From a virus, in IMG/VR virus record IMGVR_UViG_3300027965_000207, positions 1 to 25,565 of that record: a DNA stretch of 25,565 nucleotides. One strand, 5' to 3'. The notes under the pieces were generated by a model. That model made no database searches. It saw nothing but the letters and a program-made list of their open reading frames with translations, and was not told the origin of the DNA. This document shows, piece by piece, positions 1-25,565 of this stretch (position 1 is its first letter; each line of letters begins with the position of its first letter). A program made the position numbers and the translations under genes.

Positions 1-1125
1 ATGACAATGAGCGGGCGGAATCCCGAAAAGGTAGCCGCGCGCGGCTACCTTTTGAAATCGGCCGACAACCAGAGCGTGGTCATCCCGGACGGCGATTTTT
101 ACATCAACCCGAAAGCCCGCTGCCGCCGCATGATGCTGAATTCCCTCTCTGCGGAAGCTCGCCGGGTGTACGCCTGCCTGGAATTGGCGACCATGGCTTT
201 TCACCAGGAACTGGCCGTTACTATGGAGGGCGGCAAGCAACGGCCGCTTACGCCCGCCGACATTTCCCACCAGACGGGTCTATCCAAGCAGCACACCCGG
301 CGCGCTCTCGCCGAACTGGAGGCGGAAGGGCTGGTGGAGCGCCGCGCGGCGGATGGCGGCCGTTTACGCAACGGCCAAATTCTCATATACTCATGGGCGG
401 AACCGCGCAAGGCGGGAACCCAAAAAGGTAGCCGCGCGCGGCTACCTTTTCCGCACTGGTTTCCAGAGCCATGGGAGCCGCTCAAGCCCCTCATCACCCG
501 GTTAAAGCTCCAAGTGTCAATCAACGAGGTAGCCGCGCGCGACTACCTTCAGCAAGGCGCAGAAGCCGCGCGCAGCTACCAAAAAGCCGAAAAGGTAGCC
601 AGGGAATTCCTGGAAAGGGTCTGCGCGCGCCCCCCCTCTAATAAGGAAGAAAGAACTGAAAGAAAGATTGAAAGAAAGAGCGGTCTGTCGGTAGGTCAGA
701 AGGATAGTAGAAGGGACCGACCGACCGACTCCTCTTCCCCGGAGGCCGAAATCCAAAAGCTCCCCCAGGTACGGCGCCTGAGCACACGGCTGAAAGACAC
801 GCCCAGCCCGCAACTCTATGCGGACATCCTGCGCGCCCTGGCGGGCGCCCCGCTGGCGGATCTGGACGCGCGCATCGCGCTGCGCTTCGAGAAGATCACG
901 TCCCTCGGGATGCTCGTGAAACTGGCCGGCGACGTGGGCCGCGCGCACGCCGCGCGGGAGGCCGAGCGGCAGGCCGACCAACGCGCGCACGCGCGCCAGA
1001 TGGAGCGCCAGCGCCAGGCGCTGATCGCCGATCTGCGCGCGCACTGGAGCGAGTTGAGCGACGAGGACCGCGACTACTACCGCCGCGAAATCCCCGAGCT
1101 GCGGGCCGCGGGAGCCGGCGCATGA
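1..1125 (+). CDS. Winged-helix phage replication initiator-like protein
   Basis: This 374-residue protein probably binds DNA and starts phage replication, by analogy with lambda O. Residues about 45-135 look like a winged helix: a helical lead-in (SLSAEARRVYACLELATM), then PADISHQTGLSKQHTRRALAELEAEG broken by a turn, then a basic wing. Residues 140-260 are low-complexity and charged and overlie the palindromes and the A-rich tract. Residues 265-374 form a helical C-terminal part rich in Arg and Ala. The architecture of DNA-binding domain, repeat-bearing middle and C-terminal domain is that of lambda-type initiators, but I do not recognise a named family. The ATG is the first base of the window, so a start further upstream cannot be excluded. 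The last four bases overlap the next gene (ATGA), indicating translational coupling. It could instead be a transcriptional regulator; the initiator call is inference from context and repeats. Confidence 0.6.
   Translation: MTMSGRNPEKVAARGYLLKSADNQSVVIPDGDFYINPKARCRRMMLNSLSAEARRVYACLELATMAFHQELAVTMEGGKQRPLTPADISHQTGLSKQHTRRALAELEAEGLVERRAADGGRLRNGQILIYSWAEPRKAGTQKGSRARLPFPHWFPEPWEPLKPLITRLKLQVSINEVAARDYLQQGAEAARSYQKAEKVAREFLERVCARPPSNKEERTERKIERKSGLSVGQKDSRRDRPTDSSSPEAEIQKLPQVRRLSTRLKDTPSPQLYADILRALAGAPLADLDARIALRFEKITSLGMLVKLAGDVGRAHAAREAERQADQRAHARQMERQRQALIADLRAHWSELSDEDRDYYRREIPELRAAGAGA
26..53. repeat. 28-bp perfect palindrome, copy A
   Basis: The core is GGTAGCCGCGCGCGGCTACC, flanked by AAAA on the left and TTTT on the right; all 28 bases are self-complementary. 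It lies in codons 9-18 of the initiator-like gene and is read there as KVAARGYL. It could bind a dimeric protein, or form a terminator-like hairpin in RNA on either strand. Confidence 0.9.
423..450. repeat. 28-bp perfect palindrome, copy B, identical to copy A
   Basis: All 28 bases match the copy at 26-53, but this copy is read in a different codon phase (KGSRARLPF rather than KVAARGYL). Identity across two frames points to selection on the DNA or RNA rather than on the peptide, or to recent copying. Confidence 0.9.
528..547. repeat. Palindrome copy C, one mismatch in the 20-bp core
   Basis: This matches the 20-bp core of copies A and B at 19 of 20 positions; a G to A change breaks one base pair. 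It is followed by TTC rather than TTTT. Its codon phase is that of copy A (VAARDYL). Confidence 0.8.
561..580. repeat. Degenerate palindrome copy D
   Basis: This matches the core at 17 of 20 positions: AGCCGCGCGC and GCTACC are kept, and the left end and one central base differ. Its centre is 33 bp from that of copy C, about three helical turns. Confidence 0.65.
590..600. repeat. Half-site of the palindrome (AAAAGGTAGCC)
   Basis: Eleven bases match the left arm of copies A and B exactly, with no right arm. It lies 10 bp after copy D and before the A-rich tract. Confidence 0.6.
644..680 (+). repeat. A-rich purine tandem repeat (about 12-bp units)
   Basis: TGAAAGAAAGA occurs at 657-667 and again at 669-679, a period of 12. 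A weaker copy (AGGAAGAAAGAA, 9 of 12) precedes them at 644-655. One strand is almost all purine. It encodes a charged stretch (EERTERKIERKS) in the linker of the initiator-like protein. It resembles a DNA-unwinding element beside initiator sites. Confidence 0.65.
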
Positions 1126-2420: not shown

Positions 2421-2858
2421 GTGATTCCCAGCATTGAGCTGGCTCAAGAGCAGGCCCGGCGGTTGGCCATCGTGGATGAATTCGGGGAGTTGGAGCGCCA
2501 AATCGCTGAATTCAAACCCAAAACCGAACGCCACAAGGCCCTAAAAGAGCAGATTTTAAGCTGGTACGCGGACCTGGACGGCGCCGCGACGGCGCAGGCG
2601 GAAGGCCGGCGCTACAGCGTGCAGATCGGCACGCGCCAGAACCAGCGCACCATCACCAAGCCCTGGAAAGCCTGGGCCTTGCTGCGGCGGGCCATCGGCC
2701 TGGACCAAGTGATGGAACTGGTGACCATTCCGCTGGCAGCCATCGACCGCTACATTCCCGCGGAGCAACACGCGTGGATCCTCTCCGAAGCGCGCACTGG
2801 CGCCCGGAAAGTCGTAGCGGTGGCCAAGGCCTCCGAAGTGGTGGCGCAGGCTGCCTGA
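2421..2858 (+). CDS. Unknown phage protein, coiled-coil-like N-terminus
   Basis: This 145-residue protein starts at GTG; no in-frame ATG lies near. Residues 1-50 look like a helical or coiled segment (AIVDEFGELERQIAEFKPK, then HKALKEQILSWYAD). They are followed by a small beta part (RRYSVQIGTRQNQRTI) and a helical end. This layout resembles short phage early proteins in which a helical lead is joined to a compact domain, but I cannot name the family. It is the first gene of the + unit that continues to the NusG-like gene, with 46 bases between them, and it is divergent from the LuxR pair, so it may be under that control. The start is uncertain because an upstream ribosome site is weak (AAGAG). 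Confidence 0.65.
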   Translation: MIPSIELAQEQARRLAIVDEFGELERQIAEFKPKTERHKALKEQILSWYADLDGAATAQAEGRRYSVQIGTRQNQRTITKPWKAWALLRRAIGLDQVMELVTIPLAAIDRYIPAEQHAWILSEARTGARKVVAVAKASEVVAQAA

Positions 2859-2863
2859 GATAT

Positions 2864-2905
2864 CGAAGTTTCCCGCGTGCGATGGGACTTCGCCGGCGGT
2901 AGCTG
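2864..2905 (+). promoter_or_regulatory. Leader hairpin and ops-like pause element before the NusG-like gene
   Basis: CGAAGT (2864-2869) pairs with ACTTCG (2887-2892), and CCC (2872-2874) with GGG (2884-2886), leaving a TT bulge and a 9-nt loop. Three bases on is GGCGGTAG (2895-2902), identical to the core of the E. coli ops site that recruits RfaH. T2904 and G2905 with G2895 fit the elemental pause rule G at -10, pyrimidine at -1, G at +1, and the hairpin base lies 12 nt from T2904, the spacing of a hairpin-stabilised pause. Sequence facts are direct; function is inferred. Confidence 0.45.
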
Positions 2906-3429
2906 TGCCTGAAGGCTGGTACGCGCTGATGGTGCGCACCGGACGCGAGGCCACCGTGCGCGGGCTGCTGACCCGCCGCGGCATCCAGGCCTTCCTGCCG
3001 GTGTTCCGCATCGAAACGCGCTGGAGTGACCGGCGCAAGATCCTGGAGCGACCGGTTTTCCCGAGCTATCTGTTCGCGCGCTTCCGCGCCGACGCCCGGC
3101 TGCCCATCCTGCAAGTGCCCCACGTGCTGCACATCCTGGGAGACGCCCGCGGCCCCGTGGCCGTGCCCGACGAGCAGATCGGCGCCGTGCGGCGCCTGGT
3201 AGAGACCCCCGCGGTGCCCGTGGTGCCCTGGATGTACCTCCATAGTGGCGATCGAGTCTTGGTCGAGCGCGGCCCACTGGCCGGCCTGGAGGGCCTCGTG
3301 GTGCGCACCAAAGACGCCTGCCGCGTGGTGGTGTCGGTGGACCTGATGCACCGCTCCCTAGCCGCCGAAGTGGACGCCGACAGTCTGCGCCGCCTGGCAT
3401 CCGCCCCCGAAATTCCTCGAGCTGCCTAG
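2905..3429 (+). CDS. NusG/RfaH-like transcription antitermination protein
   Basis: This 174-residue protein should bind RNA polymerase and increase processivity or block termination. Residues 5-98 are an NGN domain: WYALMVRTGREATVRGLL, GIQAFLPVFRIETRWSDRRK, then the hallmark RPVFPSYLFARF, and ending VPDEQIGAVRRLVE. Residues about 112-160 are a KOW domain (GDRVLVERGPLAGLEGLVV). The length equals that of specialised NusG paralogues (RfaH, LoaP and UpxY types). The GTG start is the reasonable choice because the NGN domain begins five residues in; its ribosome site would coincide with the ops-like GGCGGTAG. It sits between early genes and the packaging operon, where lambdoid phages keep their late antiterminator, so a late-gene role is likely but inferred. 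A housekeeping NusG is unlikely in this phage context, since sec and ribosomal genes are absent. Confidence 0.88.
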   Translation: MPEGWYALMVRTGREATVRGLLTRRGIQAFLPVFRIETRWSDRRKILERPVFPSYLFARFRADARLPILQVPHVLHILGDARGPVAVPDEQIGAVRRLVETPAVPVVPWMYLHSGDRVLVERGPLAGLEGLVVRTKDACRVVVSVDLMHRSLAAEVDADSLRRLASAPEIPRAA

Positions 3430-3434
3430 ACAGA

Positions 3435-3495
3435 ACGGAGCCCCCTCCTTTATCTGGCGGCAGGCCTTGCGCGCGCCGGGCCTGCCGCGCTCCGT
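3435..3495 (+). promoter_or_regulatory. Two-stem structured element between the NusG-like gene and the late operon
   Basis: An inner stem pairs GCGGCAGGCC (3457-3466) with GGCCTGCCGC (3479-3488), ten perfect pairs with a 12-nt loop. An outer stem pairs ACGGAGC (3435-3441) with GCTCCGT (3489-3495), seven perfect pairs. The right arms are contiguous; the left arms are separated by a 15-nt pyrimidine-rich bulge. There is no T-run after it, so it is not a standard terminator. It could be an antitermination, pausing or processing element in the RNA leader of the late genes. Confidence 0.5.
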
Positions 3496-4046: not shown

Positions 4047-4184
4047 ATGAGTGCCTGGCTGGATCCGGTGTTTCAAGACGAGGACGAGGAGCGCGGCCTG
4101 CAGGACTGGCTCATTTGGGACCTGCCCGGGCAGCGTCCGCGGCGGCGCGCCCGGCGCCAGCGGCGGAAGCTCCCGCGACGATGA
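4047..4184 (+). CDS. 45-residue acidic/basic small protein coupled to TerS
   Basis: This short frame has GGAG seven bases before its ATG, the best ribosome site in the neighbourhood. Its TGA overlaps the ATG of the small terminase gene (ATGA). The peptide begins with an acidic, Trp-containing half (LDPVFQDEDEERGLQDWLIW) and ends in a strongly basic half (RPRRRARRQRRKLPRR). It may be a real small nucleic-acid-binding protein, or mainly a coupling leader that sets TerS output. Coding is supported by signals and spacing; function is unknown. Confidence 0.5.
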   Translation: MSAWLDPVFQDEDEERGLQDWLIWDLPGQRPRRRARRQRRKLPRR

Positions 4185-4693
4185 AGCGCCAGAAGAAACC
4201 CTCCAAACCTTCCAAGCTGGTGGCCTTCCTGGAGGAATACCGCGAGAGCGGATCCGTCACCCTGGCCGCCAAACGCGCCGGCATCAGCCGCAACGCGCAC
4301 TATAAGCGTCTGAAGCAGGATCGCGCCTACGCCAAGGTCTTCCACGCCTGCCGCGACCAGGCCGGGGCCAGCCTGGAAGATGAAGCCATCCGGCGGGCTA
4401 CCCGCGGCGTGCTGGAACCGGTCTTTTACCAGGGCAACCGCTGCGGCTACATTCGGCGCTATTCCGATGGCCTACTGCAATTTTTGCTGAAGGGCGCACT
4501 GCCCGAGAAGTACCGGGAGCGCAGCAGCGTGGAGCACAGCGGCCCGGCGGGCGGCCCCATCGAATTCACCGACGCCACCCTGGCGCAACTGAGCGATACC
4601 GAACTTGAGTGCCTTATTGGCGTTGCCCGAAAGCTGCAGGACACTGCCGATGCTGGAGGCGGAACTGCGCCGCCGGCAGCAGAACAAGTTTAG
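4181..4693 (+). CDS. Terminase small subunit
   Basis: This 170-residue protein should recognise the pac site and load the large subunit. Residues about 12-45 contain a helix-turn-helix-like segment (SGSVTLAAKRAGISRNAHYK) after a basic N-terminus. The middle has GASLEDEAIRRATRGVLEPV and LLQFLLKGALPEKYRER, a combination typical of phage small terminases ending in Glu-rich or polar tails. P22 gp3 is about 162 residues, so the size fits. I chose ATG 4181 because it overlaps the preceding small gene; the frame is open to 4115, but that extension is Ala/Pro-rich and lies inside the other gene. The large subunit follows and overlaps its 3' end, as expected for a packaging pair. Confidence 0.85.
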   Translation: MKRQKKPSKPSKLVAFLEEYRESGSVTLAAKRAGISRNAHYKRLKQDRAYAKVFHACRDQAGASLEDEAIRRATRGVLEPVFYQGNRCGYIRRYSDGLLQFLLKGALPEKYRERSSVEHSGPAGGPIEFTDATLAQLSDTELECLIGVARKLQDTADAGGGTAPPAAEQV

Positions 4694-6062
4694 CCGCATC
4701 TTCCCCGCGGTAGGCCCCTGCCGGCGCGAGTTGTACGCGCGGCACCTGGAATTCTTCGCCGCAGGCGCGCAGTTCCGCGAACGGCTGTTCGCGGCCGGCA
4801 ACCGCACCGGCAAGACCGAGGCGGGCGCCTTCGAGCTGACCTGTCACGCCACCGGCATCTATCCGCCCTGGTGGACGGGCAAGCGCTTCTCCAAGGCCAT
4901 CGACGCCTGGGCCTGCGGCACCACCAACCAGACCACCCGCGACATCGTGCAGGAGAAGCTGCTGGGACCGGAAGGCGCGCGCGGCACCGGCATGCTCCCG
5001 GGCCACCGCATCGTGCATGTGGCCAACAAACAGGGGCTGCCCAACGCCGCGGATACCATTTGGGTCGAGCACGTCTCGGGCGGGCGCTCGATGATCGGGC
5101 TCAAGAGCTACGAGAGCGGGCGCAAGAGTTTCGAGGGCACCGCCAAACACGCCATCTGGTGCGACGAGGAGCCGGACCTGGGCGTGTATACCGAGTGCCT
5201 GTACCGCACCGCCACCACGGACGGGGTGCTCTATACCACGTTCACGCCGCTCAACGGCATGAGTGAAGTGGTCAAAAGTTTCTTCGAGCCGGAATCCGAC
5301 GCCGTGCGCCTGGTCAAGCACGTCACGCAGGCCACCTGGGACGATGTGCCGCACCTGACCGCGGAGGCCAAGGCGCAACTGATCGCCTCCACGCCGGCCT
5401 ACCAGCGGGACGCGCGCACGCGGGGCATCCCGCAGTTGGGCGTGGGGGCCATCTACCCGCTGGCGGAGTCCGACATCCTGGTGCCGCCGCGCCCGTTGCC
5501 GGCGCATTGGCCGCGGGTCTACGGCATGGATGTGGGCTGGCGCCGCACCGCGGCGCTCTGGCTGGCGCTGGATCGAGACACCGGCACCTGGTACGCCTGG
5601 CACGAGTATTACCGCAGCCAAGCCGAGCCGGCGGTCCACGCGGCGGGGATTACGGCGCCGGGCAAGTGGATCCCGGGCGTGATTGATCCGTCCTGCCTGG
5701 CCTCTTCGCAGATCGACGGCCGCAACCTGATGGAGATGTACGGCCAGTTGGGGCTGGACCTGGAGCCCGCCGAAAACGCCGTGGAGACCGGCATCTATGA
5801 GGTCTGGCAGGCGCTTTCCAGCGGGCGGCTCAAGGTCTTTGAAACGCTGGCCAACTGGATCAGTGAATTCCGCCGCTACCACCGCGACGAAAAGGGCCGG
5901 GTGGTCAAAGAGGACGATCACCTGATGGATGCCACGCGCTACGCCTGGATGAGCGGGCGGGCGCGCGCCAAGGTGGCCCCGCCGCCCTCCCCGGCGGCCG
6001 GCGGCTACGTGGATCCGTTCCGCGGGGGTGGCCAGGCCGGCCCCGGCAGTTGGATGGCCTAA
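4650..6062 (+). CDS. Terminase large subunit, P22 gp2-like
   Basis: This is the packaging motor and headful nuclease, about 470 residues from ATG 4650 (P22 gp2 is about 499). A TTG at 4605 would add 15 residues; the ATG has AGGA about ten bases upstream. Walker A is GNRTGKT at residues 50-56 and Walker B is IWCDEE at 169-174. TTFTPLNG follows at about 196-203, the coupling motif position. The nuclease part has its acidic residues in VYGMDVGW (D294), GVIDPS (D346) and EDDHLMDATRYAW (422-427). All expected catalytic residues are visible, so it should be active. The Pro/Gly-rich tail probably meets the portal. The start overlaps TerS by 44 bases. Headful packaging is inferred from the family. 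Confidence 0.95.
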   Translation: MLEAELRRRQQNKFSRIFPAVGPCRRELYARHLEFFAAGAQFRERLFAAGNRTGKTEAGAFELTCHATGIYPPWWTGKRFSKAIDAWACGTTNQTTRDIVQEKLLGPEGARGTGMLPGHRIVHVANKQGLPNAADTIWVEHVSGGRSMIGLKSYESGRKSFEGTAKHAIWCDEEPDLGVYTECLYRTATTDGVLYTTFTPLNGMSEVVKSFFEPESDAVRLVKHVTQATWDDVPHLTAEAKAQLIASTPAYQRDARTRGIPQLGVGAIYPLAESDILVPPRPLPAHWPRVYGMDVGWRRTAALWLALDRDTGTWYAWHEYYRSQAEPAVHAAGITAPGKWIPGVIDPSCLASSQIDGRNLMEMYGQLGLDLEPAENAVETGIYEVWQALSSGRLKVFETLANWISEFRRYHRDEKGRVVKEDDHLMDATRYAWMSGRARAKVAPPPSPAAGGYVDPFRGGGQAGPGSWMA

Positions 6063-7241: not shown

Positions 7242-8363
7242 ATGAGCTACCAGATTCTGACCGGCGATGCCCTGACCCTGCTGCGCACGCTGCCGGATTC
7301 GAGCGTGCAGACCTGCATCACCTCCCCGCCCTATTACGGCCTGCGCGATTACGGCACGGCCCGCTGGCGCGGCGGGCGCAAGGATTGTCCGCACCGGGCC
7401 GGCCAATTGCGCCGCGGCGTGAACCTGGCGCAGTCGCCCGCGTCCACCCGCGGCGGAGCCAAGAAAGCCGCAGAGGTGGGCTGGCTCCAGGCACGCGAAG
7501 TCTGCCGCCACTGCGGGGCCCGGCGCGTGGATCGGCAACTCGGTCTGGAGCGCACCCCCGAGGAGTATGTGGCGCGGCTGGTGGCGGTCTTCCGCGAGGT
7601 GCGGCGCGTGCTCGCCGACGATGGCACGCTCTGGCTGAACCTGGGGGACGGCTTTCGGGGCAAGAATCTGCTGGGGATGCCCTGGCGCATGGCGCTGGCC
7701 CTGCAAGCGGATGGCTGGTATCTGCGCTCCGACATCATCTGGCACAAGCCCAACCCCATGCCGGAGAGCGTGCGCGACCGCCCCACCAAGAGCCACGAGT
7801 ACCTTTTCCTGCTGAGCAAGAGCCGGCGCTACTACTACGATTGCCTGGCCATCCAGGAACGGACCACGGGCAACGCGCATGATCGCTCACGCAAGCATCG
7901 CGCACGGGAGGGACAGAAGACCTTTCCGACCGCCCAGTGCAACGGCATACGGGCTCCCGGCGTGAACCCCAAAGCGCAGAAGTGGCCCAACGCCTGGAGC
8001 GCCGAGCCCGGGCGCCACGATGGGATCGGCAACGGCCGCTTCCGCCCTAAGCAAAATGCATCTTTCTCTGCGGCCGTAGTGCGAACGGTGGATCGCCGCA
8101 ACAAACGTACCGTCTGGACCATCCCGACGTTCCCGTTCCCGCAAGCTCACTTCGCCACATTCCCGCCGCGCCTGGTCGAGCCCTGCGTGCTGGCGGGTTC
8201 TCGAGCTGGCGATACCGTGCTGGATCCGTTTGCCGGCGCCGGCACCACCGGCCTGGTGGCCCTGGCCCACGGCCGCCGCTTCCTGGGTATCGAACTGAAT
8301 CCGCGCTATGTGCGCATGGCCCTGGCGCGCCTCGACCCGCCGGCCCTGGCCCGGGCGGCCTGA
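7242..8363 (+). CDS. Orphan DNA methyltransferase, beta-class N4-cytosine/N6-adenine type
   Basis: This 373-residue enzyme should transfer a methyl group from S-adenosylmethionine to an exocyclic amine of a base. The catalytic motif TSPPYYGLRDYG is at residues 27-38 and the cofactor motif DPFAGAGTT at 328-336, so the order is IV then I, as in the beta class. TSPPY is commonest in N4-cytosine enzymes, but N6-adenine cannot be excluded. A possible metal site is C49-P-H51 with C88 and C91 (CRHC), within an insertion also seen in related phage enzymes. No restriction enzyme gene is nearby, so it is an orphan enzyme. It sits between TerL and portal; protection against host restriction or pac-site marking are both plausible. 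The ribosome site is weak. Confidence 0.9.
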   Translation: MSYQILTGDALTLLRTLPDSSVQTCITSPPYYGLRDYGTARWRGGRKDCPHRAGQLRRGVNLAQSPASTRGGAKKAAEVGWLQAREVCRHCGARRVDRQLGLERTPEEYVARLVAVFREVRRVLADDGTLWLNLGDGFRGKNLLGMPWRMALALQADGWYLRSDIIWHKPNPMPESVRDRPTKSHEYLFLLSKSRRYYYDCLAIQERTTGNAHDRSRKHRAREGQKTFPTAQCNGIRAPGVNPKAQKWPNAWSAEPGRHDGIGNGRFRPKQNASFSAAVVRTVDRRNKRTVWTIPTFPFPQAHFATFPPRLVEPCVLAGSRAGDTVLDPFAGAGTTGLVALAHGRRFLGIELNPRYVRMALARLDPPALARAA

Positions 8364-8376
8364 AAGTCTCCCTCTC

Positions 8377-10512
8377 ATGTTTCCCCTCCCTCCCCGCCGG
8401 CGATCCGGCGCGCACGTCACCGTGGAGGCCTCCGCGCCGGCGGCCCCACCCTCGGATCGCGTCCGTCACGACGCTTTTCTGCGCAAGGTCAAAGAGCGCT
8501 TCCAACTGGCTGCCGAAGCCGAGAGCGAGATCCGCCAGGAGGCCCTGGAGGATCTGGACTTCTACCTGGGCAAGCAGTGGCCCGCCAGCATCGAGAGCGA
8601 CCGCCTGGCGGACCAGCGCCCCTGTCTGACCATCAATCGCCTGCCGCAATTCATCAAGCAGATCACCAATTCGCAGCGCGAGAATCGCCCCGCCATCCAG
8701 GTCAACCCGGTGGGCGACGGCGCCGACCAGGACACCGCCGAAATCTACCAGGGACTCACCCGCCACATCGAAATCAATTCCGCGGCGGACGTGGCCTACG
8801 ATACGGCCTTCGAGCATGCCGTCATTTTCGGCTTCGGCTATTTCCGCGTGCTCACCGAATACCAGGACGAACGCAGCTTCGATCAGGAAATCCTCATCGA
8901 GTCCATCCAAAACCCCTTCACGGTGTACCTGGACCCCACCGCGCAGAAGCGCGACCGTTCGGATGCCAAGTGGGGCTTCATCGTGGGCGATCTGCTGCCC
9001 GACGACTACAAGGCGCAGTATCCCCACTCGGAGCTGGCCAGCCTGGACGAGTTCAGCAGCCTGGGGGACGAAGGCCCGCTGTGGTTTCCGGGCGGCAAGA
9101 TCCGCGTGGCCGAATATTTCGAGTACGAGCCCGAGAAGGCCACCATCTGCGAACTGCCGGACGGTTCGGTAGTGGACCAGGCGGACCTCCCCGCCGGCGT
9201 CGAGCCGGTGCAGACGCGCGAAACCGAGCGCCCGCGCTTCCACTGGTACAAGCTGAACGCGCGGGAAGTGCTGGACGAGCGCGTGCTGGCGGGCCGCTAT
9301 CTGCCCGTGATCGGGGTCTACGGCGAGGAGATCAACGTCAACGGCAAGCGCGTGCTGCGCGGCGTGGTGCGCAACCAGCGCGACCCGCAGCGACAATACA
9401 ACTACATGCGCTCCGCGCTGGTGGAATCCATCGCCCTGGCGCCCAAAGCGCCCTACGTGGCCGAGGAATCGCAGATCGAGGGCCACGAGCAGGAATGGAA
9501 GAACGCCAACGTGCGCGCCGTGGCGGTGCTCAAGTACAAAGCCAAGACGGCCGGCAACAACCTGCTGCCGCCGCCGCAACGCAACTTCGGGGAAGCGCCC
9601 ATCCAGGCCATCGCCGTCGCCGTGGCGCAAGCCGACAACGATCTGAAGGCCACCGCCGGCATCTATGATGCTTCCCTGGGCGAACGCGGCCCGGAGCAGA
9701 GCGGCAAGGCCATCCTGGCGCGCCAGAAGCAGGGCGATGTTGCCAACTTCAACTTCACCGACAACCTGGCGCGCTCCATCAAGTACCTGGGCAAAGTGCT
9801 GTTGGACCTGGAGCCCAAGATTTACGACCGCCCGGGGCGGGTGGTGCGCATTGTGCGGCCGGACGAAACCCACGAGACCGTGACCCTCAACGCGCCGTTT
9901 GTCCAGAAGGGCCTGCAGAAGTTCTACGACCTCTCCACCGGGCGCTATGACGTGACCGTGAGCGTCGGGCCATCCTACCAGTCCAAGCGCCAGGAGGCGG
10001 TGGCCTCCATGGTGCAGCTCACGCAGAGCTATCCGCAGATCATGCAGATTGCCGGCGACCTGATGGTGCGCAACATGGACTGGCCGGGAGCCAGCGAGAT
10101 CGCCGACCGGCTCAAGAAGACCCTGCCGCCCGCGCTCCAGGAAGGCGATGGCCAGCAGATGCCCATTCCGCCGCAAGTGCAGACACAACTGGCGCAACTG
10201 ACGGCCATGAACCAGCAGTTGACCGCGGCGCTGAATGCCGCCACCGAGGACATCAAGACCAAGCGCCTGGAGTTGGAATCGCGCGAGCGCATCGCCGCCA
10301 TGCAGGCGCAGGCCTCCATCGTAGCGGCGGAGCTACGCGCCAAATCCAGCGACGCGCAAGCCCTGGCCAAGCTGGATTACGAATCCATCCAGCACCGCCT
10401 GGAGTTGCTGCACGAGGCCGAACAGATCGGCCACGAGCAGGAGATGGCCCAGCCGTCCGCGGCCGAGCCGCAGCCGCCCCCCGCCGGCCAGACTGAGCCG
10501 CAGGCCGCCTAA
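8377..10512 (+). CDS. Portal protein, P22 gp1-like
   Basis: This forms the dodecameric DNA channel at one head vertex and nucleates the procapsid. From ATG 8377 it has 711 residues, close to the 725 of P22 gp1; the frame is open upstream, but that stretch overlaps the methyltransferase. Family features are the N-terminal segment with DFYLGKQW and LTINRLPQFIKQITN, then FEHAVIFGFGYFRVLTEY and NPFTVYLDPTAQKRDRSDAK. Residues about 590-690 form a long Gln- and Ala-rich helical barrel (QTQLAQLTAMNQQLTAALNA and on), as in P22. The Pro-rich tail is short. Scaffold follows after 115 bp. Confidence 0.95.
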   Translation: MFPLPPRRRSGAHVTVEASAPAAPPSDRVRHDAFLRKVKERFQLAAEAESEIRQEALEDLDFYLGKQWPASIESDRLADQRPCLTINRLPQFIKQITNSQRENRPAIQVNPVGDGADQDTAEIYQGLTRHIEINSAADVAYDTAFEHAVIFGFGYFRVLTEYQDERSFDQEILIESIQNPFTVYLDPTAQKRDRSDAKWGFIVGDLLPDDYKAQYPHSELASLDEFSSLGDEGPLWFPGGKIRVAEYFEYEPEKATICELPDGSVVDQADLPAGVEPVQTRETERPRFHWYKLNAREVLDERVLAGRYLPVIGVYGEEINVNGKRVLRGVVRNQRDPQRQYNYMRSALVESIALAPKAPYVAEESQIEGHEQEWKNANVRAVAVLKYKAKTAGNNLLPPPQRNFGEAPIQAIAVAVAQADNDLKATAGIYDASLGERGPEQSGKAILARQKQGDVANFNFTDNLARSIKYLGKVLLDLEPKIYDRPGRVVRIVRPDETHETVTLNAPFVQKGLQKFYDLSTGRYDVTVSVGPSYQSKRQEAVASMVQLTQSYPQIMQIAGDLMVRNMDWPGASEIADRLKKTLPPALQEGDGQQMPIPPQVQTQLAQLTAMNQQLTAALNAATEDIKTKRLELESRERIAAMQAQASIVAAELRAKSSDAQALAKLDYESIQHRLELLHEAEQIGHEQEMAQPSAAEPQPPPAGQTEPQAA

Positions 10513-11683: not shown

Positions 11684-12949
11684 ATGGGCAACGTGTTTTT
11701 GACCCCCAGCATGATTACGCTGGAGGCCCTTTCCTCTCTCAAGAACCAATTGCAGTTCACCAAGAAGGTGAACCGCCAGTACGACGACAAATTCGGCAAA
11801 GAGGGTGCCAAGATCGGCAACACTCTGAACGTGCGTATGCCGCCGCGCTACGTGGGCCGGCGCACCTCCGCGCTGGCGGTGGAAGACATCACGCAGACCA
11901 GCACGCCGCTGGTGCTCAACACGCAGTACGGCTGCGACATCAACTTCACCAGCGCGGATCTGCTGCTCTCCATCGAGCGCTTCAGCCAGGACATCATCCA
12001 GCCGGCGGTGGCCAGTATCGCCAACGCCATCGACTACGACGGCCTGGCCCTGAGCGCGCAGATCGCCAACTACGTGGGAACCCCGGGCGTGGATCTCACC
12101 GGCGCCTCCTCGCCCACCATCACGCAAGCCGTGTTGAGCGCCAAAGTGGCGCTGGACAACTCTTCGGCGCCGCGCGATGGCAAGCGCTACCTGGTGCTGG
12201 ATCCGCAACTGGAAGCCAACGCCGTGGATGCTCTGAAAGGCCTGTTCCAAAGCTCCAACCACATCAAGGAGCAGTACGAGATGGGCGAGATGGGCACCGC
12301 TCTGGGCTTCCAGTGGTCCATGGACCAGAACACCCAGGCGCACACGGTCGGCAACCTGGCCGGCGACCTGCTGGTGGACGACGCGGACCAGACCGGCTCC
12401 CAGATCACCGTCAAGACCGGCACCGCCGGCACGAAGATCAACCCCGGCGACATCCTCCAGTTCGAGGGCGTCTACCAGGTCAACCTGCAGAACCGCCAGA
12501 CCACCGGCGTGCTGCAGCCGTTCACCGTCACCGAACTCTGCACCATCGGCGGCGACGGCACGGCTACGGTCAAGATCGCGCCGCCGCTGACTCCGCCCGA
12601 CAAGGACACCGGCGACAAGGTGGCGGGTCAGACCGTCACGGCTTCCCCGGCCTCCGGCGCCAAGGTCTATCTGTTCAACAAGGGCACCGCGAACTACGCC
12701 GACGTGACCGGCAAAGTCTCGCCCACCTCCATCGCCTTCCACCGGGATGCCTTTGTGTTTGCCACCGCCGACCTGCCCATGCCCCGCGGCGTGGACATGG
12801 CCGCGCGAATCGTGGATCCCGAAACCAACATCAGCATGCGTCTGGTTCGCGCCTATGACGTGAACGCGGACAAGTTCCCCTGCCGCCTCGATGTGCTGGG
12901 CGGCTGGGCCGTGCTGCGGCGCGAGCTGGCCTGCCGCATTCAGCGGTAG
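11684..12949 (+). CDS. Major capsid (coat) protein, P22 gp5-like
   Basis: This HK97-fold shell protein has 421 residues; P22 coat has 430. The ribosome site AAGGA lies ten bases upstream. Recognisable are an N-terminal arm (SLKNQLQFTKKVNRQYDDKF), the segment GNTLNVRMPPRYVGRR, and the inserted I-domain at about 225-340 with INPGDILQFEGVYQVN followed by LQPFTVTELCTIG, a beta-barrel insertion characteristic of P22-type coats. The C-terminus ends with the conserved-looking VLGGWAVLRREL. No prohead protease site is visible. It is followed by a terminator-like hairpin, often seen after very highly expressed coat genes. Confidence 0.93.
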   Translation: MGNVFLTPSMITLEALSSLKNQLQFTKKVNRQYDDKFGKEGAKIGNTLNVRMPPRYVGRRTSALAVEDITQTSTPLVLNTQYGCDINFTSADLLLSIERFSQDIIQPAVASIANAIDYDGLALSAQIANYVGTPGVDLTGASSPTITQAVLSAKVALDNSSAPRDGKRYLVLDPQLEANAVDALKGLFQSSNHIKEQYEMGEMGTALGFQWSMDQNTQAHTVGNLAGDLLVDDADQTGSQITVKTGTAGTKINPGDILQFEGVYQVNLQNRQTTGVLQPFTVTELCTIGGDGTATVKIAPPLTPPDKDTGDKVAGQTVTASPASGAKVYLFNKGTANYADVTGKVSPTSIAFHRDAFVFATADLPMPRGVDMAARIVDPETNISMRLVRAYDVNADKFPCRLDVLGGWAVLRRELACRIQR

Positions 12950-12965
12950 CCGGCACGCTGCGCTG

Positions 12966-13014
12966 GGGGCCGGGCCGCTCCTCCCATCTGCGGGGCGGCC
13001 CCGCCCCCGTTTTT
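12966..13014 (+). terminator. Terminator-like hairpin after the coat gene
   Basis: GGGGCCGGGCCGC (12966-12978) pairs with GCGGGGCGGCCCC (12990-13002), with two mismatched positions in the middle and an 11-nt loop. GCCCCCG and five T (13010-13014) follow within eight bases. This fits a rho-independent or partial terminator that would lower transcription after coat, unless overridden by an antiterminator. Confidence 0.55.
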
Positions 13015-23480: not shown

Positions 23481-25565
23481 ATGCCTGTCGAACTGGACGC
23501 TTCGAGCATCGAGCTAGATCCGCGTGCGATCGCGCCCGCCCCGCTCGCCAGGACGGTAGAGCTGGAGCCCAACTCTATCGAACTGGAACCCAGCGCCATC
23601 GCGCCCGAGGCGCCGGTCACGCGCACCACCGGGCCGCAACCCGGCAGCTACACACCACCGCCCGCGGGCCGTGCGCCCATCCCGGCCGGTTTGCAGGGAC
23701 CGCCAGAGCCCGGCCGGCGCGGGGTGTACCACGGCGAGCCGATCGAGGAGACGCCACCCTCCCATCCGGGCGAGATGCGCGAGGCGCTGGGCTTCGGCGG
23801 CAGCTACGCCAAGCTGATTCCGCCCGCAGACCAGGATGCCAGTGTGCCCGCGCAAATCACCCGCGGGGCGCTGCGCGGCATCGTCAACACGCTGAGCCCC
23901 GAGAGCGCCAGCTATGCGCTGGCCTTCCTGGTGGGCGGCGAAGCGTTGCCGGCGGCTGCCAACCTGGCGCCGGTGGCGCGCGCGCTGAAGGATCTGCCCA
24001 GCGTCTTGAAGGCCCTGGATGTCACCGCCCATGCGGCCGTACCGGCCGCGGGCCTAGTGGTGGGCGGCAAGAACCTGGCCCAAGGCGGCGTCCCGCGGAA
24101 CATGGAGCAGGCCGCGGAAACGGCCATCAACGCGCTACTGTTGGGCGCCAGCGCAGTAGGGGCGATCCGGGCCGGCCACGAAGTTCTGAAGGCCTACCCT
24201 GAAGGCCCCACGCCCGAGGCCCAAACCCGGGCGACCCAAACCGGCGGCATCGCCACGCCCCCGGTCTCCAATGAGCAGGCCGCGGCCACGGCAGAAGCAC
24301 TCGCCCAGCAGGGCCGGCGCCTGGCGGCGCAGGCCTGGAAGGACCTGGACCGCAGCCAACCGCTCCCCATCCAGATCGGCAACCAGACGGTGTATTTGCA
24401 GCCGCCCGCCAAAGTGCCGCGGGTGGTGGGCGAAGTGCAGAACCCGGATACGCCCTGGAACCCGCCCACGCGCGTGACCAAGGGCTCGCGGGTGGTGCAC
24501 ACCATCACCGAGAGCGCCGACCCCACCAGCAAGGCCCTGGTCAGCGGCACGCCGGAAGTAGTCCAGAACTGGCTGCAGAGCCGGCAGGCCACGGTGTCGC
24601 GCACGCCCTACAGCGGCCCCGGCGACGTAGGCGGCGCGCCTCCGGTAGTGCCTGCGGCTGAAGTCTCCACACTCACCCAAAACCACGCTCTGCCCTCTGA
24701 TATCCAGCCCGGCCCCAACGGCACGGTAGTCATCGAGCGGCCCAGCGGCAAGTACACGATTCACGCCATTCAGCAGGGGCAAGTGTCCTTCGTGGCCGAG
24801 ACGCCGGCGGGAAACGTGCGCGGCACGCTGCCGCTACCCATCTTCCGGCAGATGATCGAGGCGCCCCCAGCCGCCCCGGCGCCGGCGGCCACGGCCAACG
24901 CCCCGGCCCCGGCGGCGGCGGGCGGCGCCGTAGAACTGGATCCGGCCACGGTGCAGCCGGCCCCGGCGGCCACCCAACAGAAACCCGAGCCGCAGCGCCA
25001 GACGCCCGCGCAGGTACAGGCGGGCGTGCTGGCCGCGCTGCGCGCGGACCTGGCCAAAGCCGAAGCCGCCGGCAACCAGCAGGTAGCCGCCGACAAACGC
25101 GCGGCCATCGCCCGCATCGAGGCCTCCATCGCGCGCAGCCAGCAGGCGCCGGCCGCCGGCGTGGCCAACGGGCAGCCAGAGAGCGCCCCAGCGGCGCCCG
25201 GGCAGCCGACCCCTCCCCCGGCCGTGGCAGCCCCGCCAGCGGCCCCGCTAGCGCAGCCAGCAGGGGATTTGGGGTCCGAGAGCCAGGCGGAGCCGGATCT
25301 GTTCGGCCAGGCCGGGCTCAGCGTGGACGACATCGTAGCCGGCCTGGAAGAGGCCGGCCTGGCGCCGGCGCAGAAAAGCACGCCGGCAGGCTTACCACAT
25401 GAGCCTCCTACGGCCGCGCAGGCAGGCGGAAAGGTATGGCCCGGCAGAGAAATTCCGCTCAGCCAGGATGCCGAAGGCAAGTCACGGTATTGGGTTCTGA
25501 GCGAGCGCGGCAGCGTGATCGTGGCCACCGATTACGAGCGCGGGCAGCGTGGCGTCATCCCGATC
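23481..25565 (+). CDS. Large partial internal virion protein, P22 gp16 position (open at the window end)
   Basis: The frame starts at ATG 23481 and continues to the window end with no stop, giving at least 695 residues; P22 gp16 has 609, so this one is larger. It begins with a short repeat (VELDASSIELDPRAIAP and VELEPNSIELEPSAIAP, residues 3-43), echoed once later (AVELDPATVQPAPA). Residues about 140-240 are hydrophobic and helical (SYALAFLVGGEALPAAANLA, INALLLGASAVGAIRAG), suitable for membrane interaction. Much of the rest is Pro/Ala-rich linker with a helical segment (VLAALRADLAKAEAAGNQQ). No lytic motif is visible yet. It may be an ejection protein or a long polyvalent virion protein; the missing part decides. 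Confidence 0.75.
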   Translation, partial: MPVELDASSIELDPRAIAPAPLARTVELEPNSIELEPSAIAPEAPVTRTTGPQPGSYTPPPAGRAPIPAGLQGPPEPGRRGVYHGEPIEETPPSHPGEMREALGFGGSYAKLIPPADQDASVPAQITRGALRGIVNTLSPESASYALAFLVGGEALPAAANLAPVARALKDLPSVLKALDVTAHAAVPAAGLVVGGKNLAQGGVPRNMEQAAETAINALLLGASAVGAIRAGHEVLKAYPEGPTPEAQTRATQTGGIATPPVSNEQAAATAEALAQQGRRLAAQAWKDLDRSQPLPIQIGNQTVYLQPPAKVPRVVGEVQNPDTPWNPPTRVTKGSRVVHTITESADPTSKALVSGTPEVVQNWLQSRQATVSRTPYSGPGDVGGAPPVVPAAEVSTLTQNHALPSDIQPGPNGTVVIERPSGKYTIHAIQQGQVSFVAETPAGNVRGTLPLPIFRQMIEAPPAAPAPAATANAPAPAAAGGAVELDPATVQPAPAATQQKPEPQRQTPAQVQAGVLAALRADLAKAEAAGNQQVAADKRAAIARIEASIARSQQAPAAGVANGQPESAPAAPGQPTPPPAVAAPPAAPLAQPAGDLGSESQAEPDLFGQAGLSVDDIVAGLEEAGLAPAQKSTPAGLPHEPPTAAQAGGKVWPGREIPLSQDAEGKSRYWVLSERGSVIVATDYERGQRGVIPI

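Follow-up and report, generated by a model that had tools for sequence, protein, structure and literature searches.

A UpxY-type NusG paralogue with an ops-type element ahead of the late operon of an acidobacterial P22-like prophage, a likely late antiterminator

The prophage and its late unit

The analysed window, 25,565 nucleotides in length, is part of a P22-like prophage of a soil acidobacterium with an 8.2-Mb genome. Two genomes of the host's family encode proteins identical to those of named Bryobacteraceae records, and thus the host was assigned to the Bryobacteraceae. Within the 8.23-Mb genome, the window belongs to contig C35. Host-like genes, one of them resembling cinA, begin about 0.4 kb before it, and a serine recombinase is encoded on the other side of the prophage contig.

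The P22-like late module occupies one strand and encodes the small and large terminase subunits (TerS and TerL), a DNA methyltransferase, the portal, scaffold, capsid and head-closure proteins (Table 1). The late unit covers about 36 kb from the terminase and extends about 15 kb past the end of the window through a 15-kb gene, encoding a protein of 5144 amino acids, and smaller genes. The middle part of this large ORF (from 23481 onward into the adjoining record L043) resembles, by eye only, methyltransferase and helicase stretches. The DNA methyltransferase gene (7242-8363) lies within the packaging module, between the terminase and portal genes.

The NusG-like gene is situated between the replication-initiator-like gene and the terminase. 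It is separated from terS by about 0.7 kb with two or three small ORFs, and TerL, methyltransferase, portal, scaffold and capsid genes follow on the same strand, so the earlier placement directly before the late operon holds. This position before the terminase is the one occupied by the late antiterminator in phages with Q. No sigma-70 promoter was recognised upstream of the gene. Two adjoining genes for small LuxR-type HTH proteins (1851-2090 and 2087-2317, both on the minus strand), possible phage regulators, are divergent from the unit containing the NusG-like gene. The replication-initiator-like gene contains palindromic repeats GGTAGCCGCGCGCGGCTACC at 25-53, 422-451, 526-549, 564-580 and 584-600, which resemble the origin iterons within lambda O.

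Table 1. Features of the window and positions of the structured RNA in other phages and contigs
Feature	Record	Coordinates	Strand	Remarks
Replication-initiator-like gene	window	1..1125	+	winged HTH; 5' end outside window, 462 aa in total
ORF without assigned function	window	2421..2858	+	no Pfam match; directly upstream of NusG-like gene
Composite ops-type element	window	2883..2907	+	TGGGACT-N5-GGCGGTAGC-TGTG; overlaps GTG start at 2905
Upstream box of composite element	window	2883-2889	+	TGGGACT
ops core of composite element	window	2895-2903	+	GGCGGTAGC, first nine ops bases
NusG paralogue (UpxY family)	window	2905..3429	+	NGN and KOW, 174 aa, GTG start
GC hairpin	window	3457..3489	+	GCGGCAGGCC...GGCCTGCCGC; strong, no T-run; z = -2.4
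Terminase small subunit	window	4115..4693	+	phrog_4044; given as 4115/4181; first late gene with known function
Terminase large subunit	window	4605..6062	+	PHROG
Portal protein, P22-like	window	8308..10512	+	PHROG
Major capsid protein	window	11684..12949	+	PHROG
Intrinsic terminator in late operon	window	12964..13014	+	hairpin, 3' of capsid gene
Gene for 5144-aa protein, start	window	23481..25565	+	continues past window end
Structured RNA	L204	9626-9693
Structured RNA	L205	9599-9665
Structured RNA	L206	6596-6664
Structured RNA	L208	6733-6800
Structured RNA	L209	6714-6778
Structured RNA	L210	5557-5624
Structured RNA	L214	8759-8825
Structured RNA	L302-L381			further loci

Two hairpins stand out. 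One of them, GC-rich, lies directly downstream of the NusG-like gene. The other, at 12966-13014, ends in GTTTTT and is a real candidate terminator, as had been noted before. However, the suggestion that it is a special partner of the NusG-like factor has to be abandoned. A similar hairpin with a T-run occurs downstream of the capsid gene in a related prophage lacking any NusG-like gene, and thus a terminator at this place is not a mark of the factor.

The NusG-like gene is not shared by related prophages. The G069 prophage has homologous TerS (44% identity), TerL (55%), portal (51%) and capsid (52%) proteins and no NusG-like gene before terS; the NusG-like genes of this genome are on other contigs. 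In G232 and G201, the contigs with the portal gene likewise contained no NusG-like gene in the 20 kb read. Thus, although their portals are homologous, three prophages have no such gene nearby; the gene is optional in this phage group, and the late operon can function in its absence. A role in late regulation is weakened by this, but not refuted, as late regulators are exchanged among phages.

The NusG-like protein and the ops-type element

The frame of the NusG-like gene is open and intact. Its product has an NGN domain (Pfam NusG/NGN, 60.9 bits with a cut-off of 22.2) and a weak Pfam match to KOW at residues 115-137, in agreement with the first-pass description of a complete NGN-KOW protein. 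Although it had been labelled NusG/RfaH-like, it is of the UpxY type and is not an RfaH. The protein passes the cut-off of the UpxY family (antiterm_UpxY, NCBIfam NF033644; 108.9 bits against 100, residues 5-159), whereas it does not reach those of the RfaH equivalog TIGR01955 (64.3 bits against 144.5) and LoaP NF033641 (65.6 against 125), nor that of the housekeeping NusG equivalog TIGR00922 (36.7 against 135.7). In a quick tree it is placed, on a long branch, inside a clade of acidobacterial UpxY-like proteins (SH-aLRT 97). It also matches PHROG 6386, 'transcription antiterminator', with 105 bits; phage-encoded NusG-like proteins are already clustered in this family without a described role. 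Only NusG-type families in Pfam, NCBIfam and PHROG match the protein, and no homology to Q was seen. A single-sequence search of viral contigs yielded no close relatives.

The nearest chromosomal relative is encoded in an acidobacterial exopolysaccharide cluster. Polysaccharide loci are the known setting of UpxY, which regulates capsule operons in Bacteroides; factors of this family counteract early termination in the 5' leader. The window gene resembles UpxY genes in its location near the start of a long operon, since it heads the one-strand late unit, its presumed target by position. It differs from them in that this operon is a phage late operon, and in having an ops-type element before its start.

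The AlphaFold2 model, built with an alignment of 52 sequences, has a mean pLDDT of 83 and a confident NGN domain (the single sequence gave a useless model with pLDDT of 34). The KOW domain is predicted to be of the beta type, formed by strands, with moderate confidence (blocks of about 58-82 pLDDT). The alpha-helical autoinhibited KOW of E. coli RfaH is not predicted. The best PDB match of the model found by Foldseek is RfaH bound to the ops-paused complex.

Recruitment of RfaH at ops requires G4, G5, A7 and G8 and involves direct reading of G5 and T6; the side chains in contact with ops are K10, H20, R23 and R73 (PMC5995543). In the alignment, R23 is kept in the window protein and K10 is replaced by arginine, whereas H20 and R73 are replaced by leucine and proline, so that only two of the four contact positions are basic. 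Nearly all positions invariant among the relatives are retained, for example, W5 and the WSDR motif.

The positions 2882-2907 of the window, immediately upstream of and including the GTG start, read ATGGGACTTCGCCGGCGGTAGCTGTG. The nine exact ops-core bases are preceded by a second box, and the exact composite GGGAC-N6-GGCGGTAGC at 2884-2903 abuts the start codon. The same core was recognised upstream of many acidobacterial UpxY-like relatives, again with a box at constant spacing before it, G[G/T]GAC-N6-GGCGGTAGC; the consensus of the extended element is about TG[G/T]GACTCTAAnGGCGGTAGCTTGnCC. In the upstream regions of the acidobacterial UpxY-like genes L216 and L219-L291, the box TG[G/T]GAC is located exactly six bases upstream of the core. 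The element with this box was not found described in the literature searched, and the ops-type element with an additional upstream box is new here.

The element is concentrated at genes of this family. The exact composite occurs upstream of 14 of 29 relatives from the class and nowhere else in 192 kb, both strands counted. Among 80 acidobacterial UpxY-like loci, which were retrieved by alignment and partly overlap with the 29 relatives, the 250 bp before the gene contain the composite in 30 cases and the core in 33 (21 kb of upstream sequence), as compared to five and 46 matches, respectively, in 1.63 Mb elsewhere. None of these 80 loci is in a prophage context. On the other hand, the composite pattern alone means little on the genome scale, and its significance comes only from its position: in 200 genomes of the class there are 82 listed matches against about 64 for the reversed control, and about 25 of these 82 precede a listed UpxY-like gene by no more than 140 bp. 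The composite matches in viral contigs were dismissed as chance occurrences, as no NusG-like gene was present in any of the 80 loci examined.

In the 8.23-Mb genome the composite has a single copy, at the prophage NusG-like gene. Besides the product of this gene, the genome encodes just one NGN protein, the housekeeping NusG on contig C193. Therefore the factor and the element look like a private pair.

In two respects the phage element deviates from those of the relatives. Its distance to the start is 10 nt, less than in the relatives, where the element mostly precedes the matching residue by about 40-140 nt, and the pause-inducing TG (ops positions 11-12) is displaced by one base, whereas many relatives retain its position. 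As both the position of this TG and the contact residues differ, the protein is not called RfaH despite the common ops signal; compared to E. coli RfaH, it is also encoded in cis with its element. By family and tree it is classified as a UpxY-type NusG paralogue. The ops signal is common to RfaH and the UpxY-like factor, and the manner in which it is read may differ.

NusG-like genes before the terminase in other phages

A NusG-like gene just before the terminase was observed in 11 phages or contigs, including the window. The order NusG-like gene, terS, terL was found in Sinorhizobium phages phi3LM21 and phi2LM21, Mesorhizobium phage vB_MseS-P1, Nostoc phage Nsp-JY10, Synechococcus phage Yong-L2-223 (the layout in Ssp-JY38 is near-identical), viral contigs L195 and L214, and, across the record ends, in Rhizobium phage PPF1 and Agrobacterium phage Rivra. 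In several of them the upstream neighbour of the NusG-like gene is annotated as replication initiator. In the Synechococcus phages the NusG-like gene is the first one of the rightward unit. The paper on phi2LM21 and phi3LM21 does not mention antitermination.

Some candidates were discarded. Scaffolds from human faeces filed as phages look like Bacteroides capsule loci; in Microcystis phage MaAM05 the NusG-like gene belongs to a secE-nusG-rplK-rplA block; Bacillus phage G has no terminase within 5 kb of its NusG-like gene. Three records filed as phages (L297, L298, L299), the Bacteroides-like capsule loci with upxY and the block of 'Microcystis phage MaAM05', appear to be bacterial.

The NusG-like proteins of rhizobial and cyanobacterial phages are similar to the window protein in gene position, immediately before terS-terL, but share only about 27-30% identity with it. 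The rhizobial and Nostoc proteins fall outside the acidobacterial clade, on long branches of the quick tree, and this topology favours separate captures over a single origin.

The putative loading signals differ as well. In place of the ops-type element, a structured RNA motif of about 68 nt follows the NusG-like gene and precedes the late genes in seven rhizobial and Nostoc phages or contigs. Its two helices covary: none of 500 shuffles reached the observed score with these seven sequences, nor with 78 distinct sequences, the latter alignment being fitted to the model. The pattern of the 3' half of the motif was found in at least 120 viral contigs. Among the matches listed, a NusG-like ORF ends about 90-150 nt before the motif in all 69 contigs with enough upstream sequence, and terL follows 1-2.5 kb after it in all 41 contigs with enough downstream sequence; these contigs were found by the RNA motif only, and many of them are close kin that do not count as independent cases. 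A terminator-like hairpin lies within 120 nt after the motif in 44 of 80 cases, as compared to 27 of 400 control windows.

At gathering scores, Rfam has no match in the window, in the acidobacterial leaders, or at the loci of the RNA motif; BjrC174 matches the RNA motif weakly, below the threshold. A motif search did not find the rhizobial RNA in the window. The motif is apparently undescribed so far, and it provides a ready-made reporter system for rhizobial phages.

An RNA element followed by a terminator is a layout common to these modules and to LoaP (PMC12691694). LoaP of the Bacillus dfn and mln operons is, as the window protein, a NusG paralogue associated with very long operons. However, the window protein is below the LoaP cut-off, and the window contains an ops-type DNA element in place of the RNA.

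Proposed late antitermination and its alternatives

The most likely interpretation, based on comparison of sequences, is that the window gene, which is of the UpxY type, is preceded by an ops-type element and occupies the position of Q, encodes the late antiterminator. It is probably an operon-specific, processive factor that loads in cis at the element and drives the late operon in place of Q. The polymerase transcribing the unit with the upstream ORF 2421-2858 would pause at 2884-2907, before the factor's own gene. The NGN domain would then read the exposed non-template strand and clamp the polymerase, displacing the host NusG. The modified polymerase would ignore pauses, Rho and hairpin terminators, including that at 12964-13014, over roughly 36 kb, and read through the head, tail and giant-protein genes. 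Since the element precedes the gene of the factor itself, low initial readthrough would raise the factor level, and the late switch would feed itself. Indeed, long operons and very long genes are typical targets of NusG paralogues (PMC7593976, PMC12691694), and the late unit, with its gene of 15 kb and a terminator inside it, is a target of this kind. The similarity to the lambdoid Q system is in the genome position, after the replication genes and before the terminase and late operon. The protein families are unrelated, and no Q-type loading site at a late promoter was seen.

Another explanation is that the gene is a moron, a captured host regulator acting in trans on surface polysaccharide operons of the lysogen and altering the cell surface. 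The closest relatives are UpxY-like genes from genomes of the class, the nearest one from the exopolysaccharide cluster, and phages often bring genes that alter the host surface. However, the only copy of the composite element in the host genome is at the prophage gene itself, no second target with the element being known there, and the gene, embedded in a one-strand unit, has neither a promoter nor a terminator that could be recognised as its own. Thus we consider this explanation unlikely.

Similarly, it is improbable that the factor acts mainly by coupling transcription to translation, recruiting ribosomes in the manner of RfaH for weakly initiated late genes and the 5144-aa protein, with little effect on termination. 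The overlap of the element with the start codon and the predicted beta-type KOW would fit ribosome recruitment, which is known for RfaH (PMC7819879), and its targets would typically include very long genes such as this one (PMC7593976). On the other hand, the late unit has an internal terminator that needs readthrough; sequence data as such cannot separate coupling from antitermination.

Finally, a neutral remnant of a host gene that was captured recently and does nothing for the phage could explain the absence from three relatives and the long branch, but is very unlikely given the intact frame, the conservation of nearly all invariant positions, the element retained alongside the gene, and the NusG-like genes at the same position in unrelated phages.

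Late antitermination by NusG paralogues may be wider than this prophage. We are inclined to think, with less certainty, that phages have repeatedly turned captured NusG paralogues into regulators of their late genes, with a UpxY-type protein and an ops signal in the acidobacterial case and a NusG-like protein and a structured RNA in the rhizobial and Nostoc phages. If so, the acidobacterial lineage took the UpxY-type factor from host loci together with its ops-type DNA signal, and both modules are equivalents of Q that differ in protein, loading signal and history. The wider pattern of NusG paralogues before phage terminases is apparently undescribed. In the open literature, which leaves most subscription journals outside, no publication was found that deals with NusG paralogues of phages or treats RfaH, the ops element and Acidobacteria jointly, so that a report may have been missed.

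RfaH recruitment at ops is known in detail. For paralogues encoded within their own operons the mode of recruitment was unknown in 2020 (PMC7593976), and the RNA hairpin of LoaP has since been worked out (PMC12691694). The conserved ops-type element at the UpxY-type genes of many Acidobacteriota and of this phage makes the recruitment of UpxY directly testable. Its presence at these genes also questions the view that the use of ops arose late, within RfaH. Finally, for phages, the findings point to late antiterminators that belong to neither the N nor the Q type but form a class apart.
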